A DNA stretch of 32,318 nt from Gammaproteobacteria bacterium. Its GTDB lineage: Bacteria > Pseudomonadota > Gammaproteobacteria > Ga0077554 > Ga007554. The notes beneath the pieces were generated by a model. It saw only the letters and a program-made list of their open reading frames with translations, had not been told where the DNA came from and made no database searches. The stretch's first letter is position 1. Every line of letters begins with the position of its first letter. Made by a program: the position numbers and the translations under genes. Location of the stretch: assembly GCA_021731145.1 (NCBI GenBank), contig JAKFXX010000020.1, positions 1 through 32,318 of the forward strand, given 5' to 3'. Shown piece after piece: positions 11,050-19,704 of the stretch.

Positions 11050-12674
11050 TGACCAAAGAACAACTCAACCAACTTGGTAAAACCCTCTGGGCTATCGCTG
11101 ATGATCTGCGCGGCGCGATGAATGCCGACGACTTTCGCGACTATATGTTGTCGTTCCTGTTTTTGCGCTACCTCTCGGACAACTACGAAACGGCGGCGAA
11201 GAAGGAGTTGGGCAAAGACTATCCCATACCCCGAGAGGGAGACCGGCGCGCACCGCTGGCAATCTGGTACGAAGAGAACGCCGAAGATGCCGAAGACTTT
11301 GAAAAACAGATGCGCCTTAAGGTGCATTATGTGATCGAGCCGCCGCACCTGTGGAGCAGCGTTGCCGAGATGGCGCGGTCACAGCATCAAGATTTGCGCG
11401 AGACTTTGTGGACGGGTTTTAAATACATTGAAGAAAAATCGTTTGAAAGCACCTTTCAAGGTTTGTTTTCCGAAATTAATCTGTATTCGGAAAAGCTGGG
11501 TAAAACTGCAAAGGCGCAAAACGATAAACTTTGCACTGTCATCAAAAAAATCGCCGAAGGCATTGCCGAATTCGGCACCGATACCGATATCCTGGGCGAT
11601 GCCTATGAATACCTGATCGGCGAGTTCGCCGCTGGGTCGGGTAAAAAGGCGGGCGAGTTCTACACCCCGCAGCAAATCTCAACCATTCTTTCTTGCATCG
11701 TGACGCTGGACAGTCAGGAACCTAAAACAGGCCTTAAACAAAAACTGAATAAGGTATACGACTTTGCCTGTGGTTCCGGCTCGCTGCTCTTGAATGTGCG
11801 CAAGCAACTCGGCAAGGGCGGCATCGGCAAGATCTACGGCCAGGAAAAAAACATCACCACCTACAACCTGGCGCGCATGAACATGCTGCTGCACGGGGTC
11901 AAGGATACTGAGTTCGAGATTCACCACGGCGACTCGCTGCTCAACGAGTGGGAAATCCTCAAGGAAATGAACCCGGCGAAAAAGCTGAAATTCGATGCCG
12001 TGGTCGCCAACCCGCCTTTCAGCTACCGCTGGGAACCTACCGAAGCGCTAGGTGAAGATTTCCGCTTCAAAGACTACGGCCTCGCTCCCAAATCCGCCGC
12101 CGACTTCGCCTTTCTATTGCACGGCTTCCACTTCTTGAGCGATAGCGGCGTGATGGCAATTATTCTGCCCCACGGCGTGCTGTTCCGTGGCGGCGCGGAA
12201 GAGCGCATCCGTACCAAACTGCTAAAAGACGGCCATATCGACACCGTCATCGGCCTGCCCGCCAACCTTTTTTTCTCCACCGGCATCCCGGTTTGTATTC
12301 TTGTGCTGAAACGCTGCAAAAAACCGGATGATGTGCTGTTTATCAACGCCAGCTCTGAAGACAATTTCGAAAAGGGTAAACGGCAAAATCGCCTGTTGCC
12401 GGAACACATCGACAAGATCGTCAGTACCTACCAATACCGTAATGAGGAGGCACGCTACTCCCGGCGGGTGTCGATGGAGGAGATCGAGAAGAACGACTAC
12501 AACCTGAATATCTCGCGCTATGTCAGCACCGCCAAAACGGAGGAAGAGGTTAATTTGCAGGCGGTAAATACCAATTTGGTTGACCTTGAAAAGAGCATTG
12601 TTGAGAACACCAAAAAGCACAATGGATTCCTGAAGGAACTGGGGTTGCCACCATTACCTCTTGAGAATAAATAG
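11049..12674 (+). CDS. hsdM: type I restriction-modification methyltransferase subunit M
   Basis: A 541-residue HsdM. The N-terminal helical domain (LWAIADDLRGAMNADDFRDY) precedes the N6-adenine methyltransferase core, with SAM-binding motif DFACGSGSLLL (FACGSGS 239-245) and catalytic NPPF (321-324), followed by a C-terminal helical tail. It methylates adenine in the sequence chosen by HsdS and forms the M2S core to which HsdR binds. It is the last gene of the operon. Its stop falls exactly where the truncated integrase sequence on the opposite strand begins, so the recombination breakpoint lies at the end of this gene. Length is normal for the family. Confidence 0.97.
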   Translation: MTKEQLNQLGKTLWAIADDLRGAMNADDFRDYMLSFLFLRYLSDNYETAAKKELGKDYPIPREGDRRAPLAIWYEENAEDAEDFEKQMRLKVHYVIEPPHLWSSVAEMARSQHQDLRETLWTGFKYIEEKSFESTFQGLFSEINLYSEKLGKTAKAQNDKLCTVIKKIAEGIAEFGTDTDILGDAYEYLIGEFAAGSGKKAGEFYTPQQISTILSCIVTLDSQEPKTGLKQKLNKVYDFACGSGSLLLNVRKQLGKGGIGKIYGQEKNITTYNLARMNMLLHGVKDTEFEIHHGDSLLNEWEILKEMNPAKKLKFDAVVANPPFSYRWEPTEALGEDFRFKDYGLAPKSAADFAFLLHGFHFLSDSGVMAIILPHGVLFRGGAEERIRTKLLKDGHIDTVIGLPANLFFSTGIPVCILVLKRCKKPDDVLFINASSEDNFEKGKRQNRLLPEHIDKIVSTYQYRNEEARYSRRVSMEEIEKNDYNLNISRYVSTAKTEEEVNLQAVNTNLVDLEKSIVENTKKHNGFLKELGLPPLPLENK

Positions 12675-12874
12675 CGGTCGCGGGCATCCTTCAGGCCTAC
12701 GTCGGGGTACACGCCCAGCGACAGCCGTTTTTCCTTGCCGTCGAAGTGGTACTTCAGCCGCCACCACTTCCCGCCAATCGGCGAGATTTCCAGATACAGC
12801 CCGCGCTCGTCGAACAGCTTGACGGGCTTCTCGCCAGGCTCGGCATTACGGATCGCGGTATCGGTCAGCGGCAT
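12675..12874 (-). pseudogene. int: truncated P4-type tyrosine integrase (N-terminus only)
   Basis: The minus strand from ATG at 12874 encodes MPLTDTAIRNAEPGEKPVKL, then LSLGVYPDVGLKDARDR. This is the DUF4102 arm-binding N-terminus of P4-family integrases and is closely similar to the intact integrase at 18162-19424. About 67 residues remain. After ARDR the frame runs into antisense hsdM sequence. The SAM-like core-binding and catalytic domains are absent, so it cannot be active. It marks an older element whose body was replaced by, or joined to, the hsd operon. Confidence 0.88.
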
Positions 12875-13492: not shown

Positions 13493-13824
13493 TTATGAGG
13501 CGGACAGTTCCGCCGCCGCTCGCCCGGTGAAGTAGTCCCGCGCATCCGCATCGTGTTGGCACTGGCCCAACACGCCGTCGATGATCTCTTGATCGGCCTC
13601 ACCGATATGTGCCAGCCATGCCCGGATTGCCCCTTCTCTTCGTCGGTGGTCAGGGGTGCTGGTAGTTGCCCTTCCTTGGGGTTTGCTACTGCTATTGTTG
13701 CTACTCTTGCTACTCTTGCTACTGTTCGCCCGTTTTCCCTCTCGGGTGTCGCAAAAGTCGCAGGTGTCGCAGTCGCAAACCTTGCGGGTTCGCTCTTCCC
13801 ACGGATCAGCTTCGACAGGCTCAT
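13493..13824 (-). pseudogene. frame-disrupted small protein of the integrative element
   Basis: From ATG 13824 the frame reads MSLSKLIRGKSEPARF, then a low-complexity Val-Ala-rich part (RTVARVARVATIAVANP). Near 13630-13633 (four G on the minus strand) a shift is needed to continue as AIRAWLAHIGEADQEIIDGV and CQHDADARDYFTGRAAAELS, stopping at 13493. From memory, this joined protein matches a conserved family found after the primase in similar islands, so the single unbroken 241-residue reading through this region is an artefact of the shift. Function is unknown. The start overlaps the stop of the preceding 20-codon frame (ATGA). Confidence 0.6.
13683..13724 (+). repeat. 9-bp tandem-like repeats (TTGCTACTC)
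   Basis: TTGCTACT units begin at 13683, 13698, 13707 and 13716; the last three are in strict 9-bp register. They encode the Val-Ala-Arg repeats of the overlapping gene on the minus strand. Confidence 0.7.
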
Positions 13825-13883
13825 AAGATTTGCCCTTCGTAGCGTTTGCTAACGCTAATCTTGCTAAAGTTGCTAATGTTCAT
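13821..13883 (-). CDS. 20-codon ORF between primase and the next gene
   Basis: ATG at 13883 overlaps the primase-gene stop, and its TGA overlaps the following gene's ATG (both ATGA type). It reads MNISNFSKISVSKRYEGQIL. The double overlap suggests a translational-coupling or leader peptide. Its coding sequence forms one arm of the 13845-13933 hairpin, and its start and a GGTGG ribosome-site-like sequence fall in the loop. I do not recognise the peptide, and it may only serve to carry ribosomes across. Confidence 0.35.
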   Translation of the reverse strand: MNISNFSKISVSKRYEGQIL

Positions 13884-13933
13884 GACTTTCCACCTGCTTC
13901 GTTAGCAGGATTAGCAGCTTTAGCATTAGCAAA
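13845..13933. repeat. inverted GCTAA iteron array / long imperfect hairpin
   Basis: Four GCTAA motifs (starting 13848, 13854, 13863, 13872) are mirrored by four TTAGC motifs (13902, 13911, 13920, 13926). The spacings are 6-9-9 and 9-9-6, an exact mirror. The two 34-base arms (13845-13878 and 13900-13933) match at 26 of 34 positions around a 21-base loop. The position directly after a primase gene suits a replication origin with iterons. Equally, the minus-strand RNA would fold as a long hairpin with the next start codon in its loop. Confidence 0.6.
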
Positions 13934-16049
13934 GTCTAAAAGCGCAGGATTGATAGCCAGCATGAACCGCTTGCCATCCTTGCGGACTTTCAGGTGGTCT
14001 AGCTCGGCCAGCTCGCGGATAGCGCCATCAAGGCTTTCCTTTTTGCGTAGTGGCCCGTATTGCAGCGCCACGCTTTTGCCGACAAGGTGCGTCCGCTCCC
14101 GCCTGCAATACTCGATCAGCCAGCTATCCAGCCGCGCCGCGTCCGCCAGTTCCGCCGGTAGCGCAAGCTCACCGAAAAAGCGCCGGGCTTCGTTCAGGTG
14201 CCATGCCGTGATTCTGCTTGCGCCCTCGAAAGCCGCCGCGCCGATTGCACCGCCCGCCGCGCCGCGTTGTCGGCGGACTTGCTCGCCACGTCCCGCACGT
14301 CGTAAAGCTTGCCGCCGCTCGCCAGTTCGCTTTCAATGGTGTCGTGATATTCCACCCATGCGGCTTTGGCTTCCGGGGTCAGGTGCAGCATGAGCGGGGT
14401 CAGCGCGCCATCGCCATCAATGGGAACAGGTTGTTCCAGTATCGCGGCAATGCGCCGATGGAATGCGGCAAGGTGCGGCCAGTTGGCGGGGGCTTCGGTG
14501 AAGGGTCGCAAGCCTTGGGTTGATTCAGGCCACGCCACAAGGAACCGGGCAAGAAAGCCCGTGCCACGCGCCAGCGCCCCGGATCGGGTGAAGAATTCCC
14601 GCAAGGTCGGTTCCTGAACCTGCAAGGCCACGGTCAGCCGCACACCGCGCACGGTGAAGGATTCCGAAGTCCTCCGGTCAATGGTCAGGCTGGCGCCGTC
14701 CCAAAGCAGATTCAGCAAACCAAGATTGCGCATGACTGAATCCTTGCCCATGCCATGCGAACCAAAAACAATCCCGGCCTCGGCAGATACCATGCCGCCC
14801 GATGGCCAATGCTTCGCCAGCCCATAGGCCAGCGCCTCGGGTGTTGCATCGGCATAGAGCAGGCGGGGGATTCTTAGCGCTTCCGGCTTGCCATGTTCCA
14901 GATTGCGCAAAGTTGATTCCGCGTTATGCGTCGGCTTCCCGGACTTGGCAAGCTGGCGGATATTCTCTTTGACGCCGCCGCGCTTGGATTCCCATGCCTC
15001 GATTGCTGCTTTGTTGTCTTTCAGGGTCGGCTTTGCGGCCTCGGCTTGCGCTGCCTCGGCTTGCGCTGCCTCATAGTCGCGTATCGGCTTGGTAAAAAAG
15101 ACGTCGCAGGTTGATTTGCGTTCACCGCTATCGGCAATGGTCATCAGGAACAGCCCGACAGGCCCATGAAGCTTTTCTGCCCGCTCCGCATCCGCATGGG
15201 GTTGGCAAGCCAGCGACAGCGCCGCCAGTGCCGACGATGCCACCATCGGCAGAGGCGCCTTGACGAAGCCCGCCACCTCTTCCACCGCCGCCCGGATAGT
15301 GTCGGGCAGCGCGGCCAGTGGGTAGGGTTCCGGGGCTACCTTCGCGGTCAGCGGTTGCGGTTCAGGCCAGCCGTTGCCGCCAGAATCGCCCTCTGGCGCG
15401 TTCCCTTCGTTGGCTTGATGTCTTGCCCTTCCCGGTGCGCTTGCGCCCGCTATGGCGCGTCCTGCGGTCGGCAGCGCGGCAATATCCGCCACCGTTGCGC
15501 CAGAGTTCGCCTTCAACCAGTTCACAGCGTCACCCTTGGGTGAAAGATTCAGCGCCGCCGTGTCGATCATCCGCACCGTGCAATTCATTGCCAACAGGAT
15601 GGAAGCCACCGCATCGGCATAGCGCCGCCCGGCTTCGTCGTTGTCGGGCCATATCGTCACGGTTCGCCCGGCCAGTGGTCGCCAGTCGGCTTTCCCTGCG
15701 GAATCCGCCGCGCCGCTGGTGGTGGTCAGCGCTCCGGCCTTCGCCAGCGCATCGGCGCACCATTCGCCTTCTACTACGATCACCGTATCATCGGGCCGGG
15801 TTGCCAGATCATGCAGGCGGTACAGCGGCTTGCCGTCTGGGTATTCCGGTTCGCCCAGTGTGTAGCCTGCGCCATTCAGCCTCATAGGGCGAATCCATTT
15901 GTCCCCTGTGGCGGGATGTTTCAGGCGGATGCGCCAGTGAAGCGGGGTGCCGTCGCGGCTGGTGTATTCATGCAGGGCTTGTGGTTTAAGCCTTCTCGAA
16001 GAGCAGCTGACGCAAGGCGCCGCGCGGCTTGTTGGGCTGTCTCGCTCAT
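13880..16049 (-). pseudogene. Toprim/DUF3987 primase-helicase of the element, frame-disrupted
   Basis: Start ATG 16049 (MSETAQQAARRLASAALREG) overlaps the upstream CHC2 gene stop. A missing base in an A run near 15986 shifts the frame before HEYTSRDGTPLHWRIRLKHP. There follow a Toprim-like domain (VIVVEGEWCADALAKAG, IWPDNDEAGRRYADA) and the DUF3987 helicase-like region with FGSHGMGKDS. A second shift, probably with a small deletion, occurs near 14245. The last part (AFEGASRITAWHLNEARRFF to NPALLDF) is in another frame and stops at 13880. Together with the CHC2 gene this is the replication module of P4-like integrative elements. As given it would not make a full protein. The rest of the sequence is well conserved, so either recent loss or sequencing error is possible. 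Confidence 0.75.
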
Positions 16050-16363
16050 GGTGTGACCTCCCACGCTCCCAACGCCTTGGCGGCGCCGATGAAACGCAGC
16101 CCATGACGCAGCATGTGAAATGCCAGCACATCGCCCCCATGCGCACCGCATACCATGCAGCGAAAACCGCCAGTGTCCAGCCGGACGCGCAGGCTGGGCT
16201 GGGTGTCGTTATGAAAGGGACAAAGAGCGTTTTTCCATTCGCCGCCGCCAGTCAGCTTCAAGCCCTGTTCGTGGTAATACTCGGCGGGGATGGGTAAAAG
16301 GTTGCGCTTGAATCCAAAGGGTTTGCGGGTGTGTTGTCCCCGCGTGGGGTTCGCGTGTCTCAT
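16046..16363 (-). CDS. CHC2 zinc-finger primase N-terminal protein
   Basis: A 105-residue protein with the CHC2 zinc-binding pattern of DnaG-like primases: CPFHNDTQPSLRV and GFRCMVCGAHGGDVLAFHM. The N-terminus (MRHANPTRGQHTRKPF) is basic. It would bind template DNA in primer synthesis, with the Toprim activity supplied by the next gene, whose start overlaps its stop by ATGA. A strong AAGGGGG ribosome site precedes ATG 16363. In many relatives the two parts are one protein; here they are coupled genes, and the ATGA overlap suggests the split is genuine. Confidence 0.8.
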   Translation of the reverse strand: MRHANPTRGQHTRKPFGFKRNLLPIPAEYYHEQGLKLTGGGEWKNALCPFHNDTQPSLRVRLDTGGFRCMVCGAHGGDVLAFHMLRHGLRFIGAAKALGAWEVTP

Positions 16364-17322: not shown

Positions 17323-17416
17323 ATCGCGCCCCTCGTGCGCCCCTTGAAGAAGGAGCCGCGCCAACCGGGCAGGGTGTCCCGGTGTTCGCCCCGTCGGGCT
17401 AGGCGCGGCAAACTCG

Positions 17417-18161: not shown

Positions 18162-19424
18162 TCATGCCGCGTTGCCGTGCAGCGGAATCACTTCCGCCCC
18201 GGCTTTCAGCTTGTCCAGATAATCCGCCCACTGCTGCATCATCTTGCGCCGCTCGGGAAGGTGCGCCGTGCGATTGTAGGCGCGCCCGTTGGGGTCTTTT
18301 ACGGCATGGGCTAATTGGTGTTCGATCAGGTCAGGGCGTACCCCCAGCACTTCATCAAGAATCGTCCTGGCCATGGCGCGGAAGCCGTGCCCGCTCATTT
18401 CATCCTTGGCTATGCCCATGCGCCGCATTGCCGCAAGGATCGCGTTATCACTCATCGGTCGCCCGTTGCTGCGCGCCCCCGGAAATACAAAGCGCCCGGT
18501 GCCGGTCAAGGCGTGAAGCTCGCGCAGGATCGCCACCGCTTGAGTGGCCAGCGGGACAATGTGCGCCGTGCCGGTTTTGGTCACGGTGTACCGCCATTCC
18601 GCCGCGTCAAGATCAATATCCGCCCATTCCGCCGTGCGAAGTTCGCCGGGCCGGACAAATACCAGTGGCGCAAGACGCAGCGCACATGCCACGGTCAAGG
18701 TGCCTTGATAGCCGTCGAGCGTTCGCAGTAATGCCGCCGCCTGCTTCGGTTCTGTGGTCGCCGCGAAGTGGTCGCCCTTCGCCGGGGGCAGTGCCCCGCG
18801 CAAGTCGCCGGATGGGTCGCGCATTGCCCGCCCGGTCGCCACGGCGTAGCGGAATACCTGCCCGCAGTTGCCCAGCGCCCGGTGCGCGGTTTCCAGTGCG
18901 CCACGGTCTTCAATGCGGCGCACCACGGCCAGCAATTGGGGTGCGGTCACATCGGCAATTGGGGTGCCACCCATCCACGGGAAAATGTCGCGTTCCAAAC
19001 GCCTGATAATGCGGTCACCGTGATGCTCCACCCAGTTGGGGGCGTGTTTCGCGTACCACTCACGCGCCACCACTTCAAAGCTGTTTGCGGCTCGATCCTG
19101 TTTCTCTGCCTTTTTCGCCTTGCGGTTTTCGCCGGGGTCTATGCCTTGGGCGAGAAGTTCGCGTGCATCATCCCGCAGTTCCCGCGCCCCTTTGCTTTTT
19201 CGTGTCTTGCCTGTTTCTTCGTCTTTCTTGATTTGGCTGGCAAGTGGAACGTCAGGATAGACGCCGAGAGATAACAGCTTTTCCTTGTTGTCGAATTTGT
19301 AGCGGAATCGCCACCACTTGCCCCCGGAAGGGGTAACAATCAGAAACAGCCCGCGTTCATCAAATATCTTGTAAGGCTTTGTGCGGGGCTTGGCGTTGCG
19401 GATCGCGGTATCAGTTAGGGCCAT
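18162..19424 (-). CDS. int: P4-type tyrosine integrase of the ssrA element
   Basis: A 420-residue site-specific recombinase. The DUF4102 arm-binding domain (DTAIRNAKPRTKPYKIFDER) is followed by the core-binding region and the catalytic domain with R258 (FVRPGEL), H346 and R349 (SGHGFRA), H373 (HQLAHA) and the nucleophile Y383 (AYNRTAHL). All are present. An insertion of about 18 charged residues (QIKKDEETGKTRKSKG, 64-79) lies after the arm domain compared with the truncated relative at 12675. The gene is read away from ssrA, with 246 bp to the tmRNA end. That interval holds TTACCC repeats and a terminator, the usual arrangement of an element integrated in a tRNA-like gene. Confidence 0.95.
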   Translation of the reverse strand: MALTDTAIRNAKPRTKPYKIFDERGLFLIVTPSGGKWWRFRYKFDNKEKLLSLGVYPDVPLASQIKKDEETGKTRKSKGARELRDDARELLAQGIDPGENRKAKKAEKQDRAANSFEVVAREWYAKHAPNWVEHHGDRIIRRLERDIFPWMGGTPIADVTAPQLLAVVRRIEDRGALETAHRALGNCGQVFRYAVATGRAMRDPSGDLRGALPPAKGDHFAATTEPKQAAALLRTLDGYQGTLTVACALRLAPLVFVRPGELRTAEWADIDLDAAEWRYTVTKTGTAHIVPLATQAVAILRELHALTGTGRFVFPGARSNGRPMSDNAILAAMRRMGIAKDEMSGHGFRAMARTILDEVLGVRPDLIEHQLAHAVKDPNGRAYNRTAHLPERRKMMQQWADYLDKLKAGAEVIPLHGNAA

Positions 19425-19662: not shown

Positions 19663-19704
19663 TGGTTAAATGGTGGAGGCGGCGGGAATCGAACCCGCGT
19701 CCGT
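19663..19704. other. attR: integration site in the 3' end of ssrA
   Basis: The 3' end of tmRNA on the minus strand plus eight bases of flank. Blocks of this sequence recur at 907-920 (14/14), 1124-1145 (one mismatch, one gap) and, weakly, at 13000-13017. The integrase next to it completes the picture of integration into ssrA. Confidence 0.65.

Follow-up and report, generated by a model that had tools for sequence, protein, structure and literature searches.

The window, as we call the whole stretch of 32,318 nucleotides that was analyzed, carries an integrative element beside a tmRNA gene. The integrase, an int-alpA RNA, the primase, and the DUF3987 frame of this element are all encoded on the minus strand. 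The tyrosine integrase lies at 18162..19424, the int-alpA RNA (Rfam RF02996, 71.9 bits) at 17341..17409 between the integrase and the replication genes, the CHC2 zinc-finger part of the primase at 16046..16363, and a frame with a Toprim-like primase part and a DUF3987 AAA+ helicase domain at 14197..16251 (Pfam PF13148 at about 14251-15261). The C-terminal winged helix of the DUF3987 protein follows at 13946..14155 and includes, at 14057..14077, residues 52-58, among which S53 and Q57 track the letters of the repeat units described below. A 14-bp exact direct repeat, TGGTTAAATGGTGG, is found at the 3' end of the tmRNA (19663..19676, unstranded) and again at 907-920. Judged by its letters, this repeat is likely the att pair, which would make the element about 18.8 kb long within the tmRNA gene.

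In the window copy, the winged helix and the ATPase part lie in different frames, the result of a 31-bp deletion relative to the related elements L035 and L037 (14257..14258, minus strand). The downstream gene (MSLSKLIRGK...AIRAWLAHIGE...; 13496..13824, minus strand) is frameshifted by a small insertion at about 13644. Since the deletion breaks the helicase frame and the next gene is frameshifted, the window copy may be dead, inactive, or misassembled. L035 and L037 share a gap of ~40 bp in the ATPase region, and this gap together with the frameshifts of the window indicates that decay or misassembly is frequent in the group. A search of PLSDB plasmids and INPHARED phages with the protein of the downstream gene returned zero matches.

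Array 1 (13845..13933, unstranded) overlies the end of the reading frame encoding the C terminus of the DUF3987 protein. Its TGCTAA-type hexamers start at 13847, 13853 (CGCTAA), 13862, and 13871 on the plus strand, and its TTAGCA-type hexamers at 13902, 13911, 13920, and 13926, which gives four units spaced 6-9-9 in one arm, four units spaced 9-9-6 in the other, and a distance of 55 bp between arm starts. Measured against the single consensus TGCTAA, 47 of the 48 letters in the eight hexamers match, leaving one mismatch. The array forms a better fold than dinucleotide-shuffled sequence (z -3.55), and 0 of 200 shuffles did as well. The AT fraction rises from ~0.41 to 0.52 only at the array itself, and no clear AT-rich unwinding stretch was found. 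A sequence-only reading of this DNA had described the mirror array and its spacing; the spacing is exact, and the layout goes far beyond what chance would give. The same reading had placed the start of a 20-codon ORF in the loop, and the ORF is indeed there (13821..13883, minus strand), with its ATG at 13883-13881; it overlaps the start codon of the gene that follows (TATGA) and shows no sign of selection in its own right.

Some 70 bp farther down the operon, within the start of the downstream gene, lies a mixed array of the same design that the earlier reading had missed (array 2, 13683..13778, unstranded). Its arms start 64 bp apart as against 55 bp, i.e., 9 bp more than in array 1. One arm is made of GCTAC-type units and the other of GTCGC-type units; read in the sense of the gene, the first arm is of GCGAC type and the second of GTAGC type. 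The GCGAC arm matches the array of L037, and the GTAGC arm resembles that of L035. We propose that array 2 is an older mixed array, the remnant of an earlier specificity. In relatives, the N terminus of the downstream protein is mostly encoded by the array, which usually lies inside that gene; in the window, it lies before the gene.

The sequence-only reading had staked its claim on the layout being conserved in related elements, and it is. We searched 274 genomes of the class for relatives with the DUF3987 protein of the window, and mirror arrays were present at the corresponding place in several of the relatives found. The exact 30-base arm pattern gave eight matches in four of these genomes, compared with one match for the pattern reversed, and a DUF3987 homologue is present in all four, with 32 of the 274 genomes carrying one overall. 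Scanning 84,980 species genomes for three units per arm, with the loop free within 14-44, yielded 44 further loci, almost all directly behind a DUF3987 gene. Despite this freedom in the loop, 38 of the 47 distinct arrays have their arms at a distance of 55 bp. The array starts ~40-60 nt behind the DUF3987 frame at nearly all loci with the gene in the examined sequence, a placement that holds in beta-, gamma-, and alphaproteobacteria, Magnetococcales, and Desulfobulbus.

A test set blind to the array consisted of 54 DUF3987 loci picked by protein alone, in which any inverted pair of three 9-bp-spaced hexamers was scored over the 650 bp behind the ATPase domain. A score of at least 30 of 36 was reached at 24 of the 54 loci but in none of 540 dinucleotide shuffles and none of the 54 windows taken from the ATPase domain. 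The remaining 30 loci had no clear array at this threshold, so the array is common rather than universal among DUF3987 genes. The direct-repeat control was also elevated behind DUF3987 (10 of 54 at a score of at least 30) because each arm consists of direct repeats; mirror symmetry was judged by the inverted score, which was higher than the direct-repeat score. The units vary by family and include TGCTAC, TGCTAA, TGCGAC, GCTATT, TACGCA, TTCGCA, GCGCCA, TTAGCC, and AACCAT, among others. In arrays of the DUF3987 set, both arms share the unit, and their letters change together.

Across the phylum, 398 genomes were sampled, and DUF3987 itself scores above the family cutoff in 57 of them. In a single-arm scan of viral contigs, 2 of 33 were true mirror arrays (L090 and L094), the other matches being mostly low-complexity coding repeats without a mirror partner. 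Variant arrangements were also seen. At L042 (7558-7695), two full arms are direct, not inverted; they lie behind a DUF3987 gene in AT-rich intergenic DNA, at a distance of 108 bp from each other. An additional lone arm lies within the primase-helicase gene at L041 (4137-4166), L096 (1561-1590), and L123 (5906-5935), preceding the main array by 1.5-1.9 kb.

AlphaFold2 models of 24 relatives of the DUF3987 protein contain an AAA+ domain whose best solved matches, the top hits of Foldseek, are MCM helicases. By VIA, this domain matches MCM with a Z score of 17.1 and an rmsd of 4.0 over 265 residues, and all of the 50 matches listed are MCM proteins or MCM complexes, giving the AAA+ domain a fold like that of the MCM helicase family. 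The C-terminal domain of the window is predicted as a confident winged helix (pLDDT of about 94 over residues 31-90), and its Foldseek and VIA matches are likewise winged helices. DUF3987 is thus modeled as a helicase of the MCM-like AAA+ kind that has a winged helix at its C terminus. By sequence, we found neither a solved structure related to the DUF3987 protein nor a Pfam match to MCM; Pfam assigns DUF3987 alone to the helicase part and gives no SF3 (D5-like) helicase domain of the kind in P4 alpha. In PMC5862659, DUF3987 is proposed as a helicase by domain association, with the prediction that it replaces known helicases beside primases. The literature on DUF3987 is sparse, and the portions consulted assign no replication origin to it.

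To relate the winged helix to the unit letters, we used a covariation set of 58 distinct winged-helix sequences in aligned columns, the window included. Residue 57 and base 4 of the unit combine as Q with T in 45 cases, R with G in 10, R with T in 1, and Q with G in 0; of the 48 TGC-T-A arrays, 45 go with Q at residue 57, all 10 TGC-G-A arrays go with R there, and residues 54 and 58 co-change with residue 57. For base 6, which is A or C, the best predictor is residue 53, with A, S, G, or I accompanying base A in 10 cases and N, R, or K accompanying C in 42, the single exception being S with C. On a tree built from the ATPase domain only, base 4 changed at least eight times, and six of seven supported independent contrasts between base 4 and residue 57 agree while none oppose (p = 0.03). 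For base 6 and residue 53, just three contrasts are supported, none of them opposing.

Over all locus pairs, unit similarity follows winged-helix identity after ATPase identity is removed (partial correlation 0.32, permutation p = 0.002) and also ATPase-domain identity after the winged helix is removed (partial correlation 0.27); as both partials are positive, the pairwise measure alone cannot single out the winged helix. In the model, the covarying residues belong to the helix that precedes the usual recognition helix, so any direct contact with the unit would be putative. The winged helix may read the unit letters via residues 53 and 57. The S53/Q57 pair of the window predicts TGCTAA, which is the unit of array 1 and fits neither arm of array 2, and this fit to array 1 is not independent, since the window is one of the 58 covariation sequences.

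A comparison among close relatives bears on how the two arrays came to lie side by side. L035 and L037 are elements of one genome from the same genus as the window, and the units of the three are all different. DNA identity among them is mostly 82-98% through the ATPase domain, 48-70% over positions 14100-13950, which encode the second half of the winged helix, and back to 85-90% downstream of the arrays, which differ. Array 1 is a ~100-bp addition relative to both L035 and L037. By this identity profile, the recognition half of the winged helix together with the array is a swapped cassette. The simplest history suggested by these alignments is that a new winged helix and array replaced an older one and left the older array behind, a history that would explain why array 1 straddles two genes. 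A sister element, L034 (own genome, C7:62445-65144), has the same primase part and a DUF927 helicase replacing DUF3987; GTTACG/CGTAAC repeats lie behind this helicase, and the next gene shares the C-terminal tail AIRAWLAHIGE. Entire helicase-plus-repeat modules seem to be exchanged between elements.

We then considered on which molecule the array is under selection. In the usual frame, the base after GC in the units is the third base of Ala codons, and it is T or G in 187 of 188 units of one arm and A in 182 of 188 of the other, so that the Ala codons of one arm are GCT/GCG and those of its partner GCA. As the arms use opposite synonymous codons for Ala, protein selection cannot be the source of the pattern, and some arrays are non-coding or switch frame between arms (L107, L135, L137, L138, and L125). 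By its codons, the signal of the array is in the DNA rather than in the protein, and we agree with the earlier claim that codon bias is insufficient to explain it. A low-complexity peptide repeat in the downstream gene (ATATPATPAT...VARVATVAVAN) that is selected as protein would be in keeping with the array lying in frame inside this gene in most relatives and with differences in arm distance that are often multiples of three. However, the opposite synonymous codons contradict this reading, array copies occur in non-coding DNA and in other frames, and the letters change along with the upstream helicase, which leaves the peptide explanation hardly credible.

The earlier reading had offered either an origin or an RNA switch. 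An RNA hairpin acting on the downstream gene as an attenuator or translational switch draws support from the folding of the transcript above shuffles and from the loop, where the small ORF has its ribosome site and start codon, but the 3-nt spacers are complementary at a rate of 0.35, below the 0.48 of shuffled pairings. The unit letters agree as well within an arm as across arms, and the agreement of the hexamers is array-wide and not pair-specific, with the spacer columns unpaired, unlike covariation that preserves pairing. Together, the unpaired spacers and the within-arm agreement imply that the hexamers are conserved and not a stem. In addition, the arms of L042 are direct and lie in non-coding DNA, and the position of the array relative to the downstream start codon varies between the window and most relatives. 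Nor do the spacers and the direct arms of L042 fit an extended base-paired stem that is independent of sequence, as in pRN1. By its pairing pattern, the array is not primarily an RNA hairpin; we regard a switch as very unlikely, and this half of the claim was not borne out. The presence of two arrays in the window and the ~100-bp addition of array 1 could also point to a palindromic repeat resembling REP or the Rickettsia palindromes, which spreads by itself and inserts into genes, yet the position behind one gene family is near-fixed, copies per genome are few, and the unit letters fit the neighboring protein, making such a repeat extremely unlikely. A further explanation accepts the array as the cognate binding site of DUF3987 and gives it a use other than as an origin, i.e., autoregulation of the replication operon, partition, or copy-number handcuffing. 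The recognition evidence from covariation, contrasts, and the cassette applies to it equally, and winged helices are common folds of repressors and partition proteins. However, the array lies behind the helicase gene of the operon, away from the promoter, and in SaPI/SCC, according to PMC7581432, a ring helicase with a C-terminal DNA-binding domain and downstream repeats makes up an origin system. We therefore consider a non-origin use unlikely.

We favor the explanation that the element's initiator helicase recognizes array 1 as its own site and that this array most likely serves as the replication origin of the element, a reading that we hold to be probable because the unit letters change with specific residues of the DNA-binding domain. 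Against it count the 30 DUF3987 loci below the array threshold, the modest rise in AT, the link of the unit to the ATPase domain, the placement of the covarying residues, the three contrasts behind residue 53, and the broken helicase frame of the window copy. The origin half of the earlier claim is thus well supported, short of proof, by a site behind an MCM-like helicase gene, a layout kept in distant relatives, and covariation with the DNA-binding domain. The sequence shows the layout of the array, its place, constraint at the DNA level, covariation with the winged helix, and the cassette swap. From these we infer physical binding, loading as two opposed rings, and origin activity. The DUF3987 protein would combine a primase with a ring helicase of the MCM-like AAA+ type and end in the winged helix, which would recognize the hexamer TGCTAA. 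Four hexamers per arm, in opposed arms at a fixed distance, would form a seat for two facing helicase assemblies, which may open the DNA so that, once the element is excised, copying proceeds in both directions. The specificity of the helicase and its array would be inherited and exchanged between elements as a single cassette, and in the window, a cassette reading TGCTAA would stand in front of the remnants of an older GCGAC/GCTAC array.

A more general proposal, whose chances we judge to be evenly balanced, is that DUF3987 proteins are a class of self-loading, MCM-like replicative helicases of bacterial mobile elements, in which the C-terminal winged helix reads mirror hexamer arrays by a simple and swappable residue-to-base code and each half-array seats one ring of a head-to-head double ring. 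A widespread domain of "unknown function," seldom named in the literature, would gain a role and a testable origin. With origin specificity readable from sequence, one could foresee which integrated elements are able to share replication proteins or compete for them, and a ring helicase reading its own mirrored site, if true, would offer a simple model for the face-to-face placement of rings.

Iteron origins of the SaPI/SCC type have short repeated units directly downstream of an initiator helicase gene, a C-terminal DNA-binding domain on the helicase, and repeat letters that co-vary with this domain; all of these are found here, the domain being the predicted winged helix. An adjoining AT-rich unwinding region also belongs to this type, and here the AT-richer DNA is the array itself (0.52 against 0.41). 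As stated in PMC7581432, citing Ubeda 2007, SaPI Rep binds iterons directly downstream of its own gene via its C-terminal domain, and two hexamers are proposed for SaPI. Both are integrated elements with an initiator helicase and repeats directly behind it, whereas our array has a DUF3987-type helicase, two exact mirror arms at a fixed distance, usually inside the next gene, and mainly proteobacterial hosts. For SCCmec Cch2, the isolated C-terminal domain was biochemically tested and binds 5-nt AAGTG iterons downstream of the gene; direct repeats matter, and inverted repeats are dispensable (PMC7581432). The window array similarly has short repeats behind a helicase gene; the helicase families differ, and the window array has mirror arms while SCCmec needs direct repeats only.

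In pRN1, an essential inverted structure of about 100 bp starts 54 bp behind the primase-helicase gene ORF904 (PMC4234260). ORF904, like the DUF3987 protein, is a primase-helicase with a C-terminal winged helix. However, it has an archaeo-eukaryotic primase and an SF3 helicase, and pRN1 depends on stem integrity without iterons, whereas here hexamers are kept and spacers are unpaired. Phage P4 alpha combines a Toprim-type primase, a helicase, and a C-terminal DNA-binding domain in one protein that acts with ori and crr iterons. The lone arms of L041, L096, and L123 resemble the two-site layout of ori and crr, although P4 alpha is an SF3 helicase, and we know of no mirror array adjoining the alpha gene. 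MCM helicases share the AAA+ fold and the C-terminal winged helix with the DUF3987 protein, but they are loaded by other proteins, whereas DUF3987, which lies outside Pfam MCM, appears to read its site itself. By these comparisons, the array appears to belong with the SaPI/SCC/P4 kind of iteron origin, as a variant.

Outside the replication region, the window holds defence-like cargo between 1154 and 12674, including HipA with an HTH partner and a type I restriction system; genes for Fic, DUF559, AAA_13, and RhuM sit between the subunits of the latter. At 12518-12874 on the minus strand, an N-terminal fragment of a second integrase is fused to sequence overlapping hsdM and is possibly the scar of another element.
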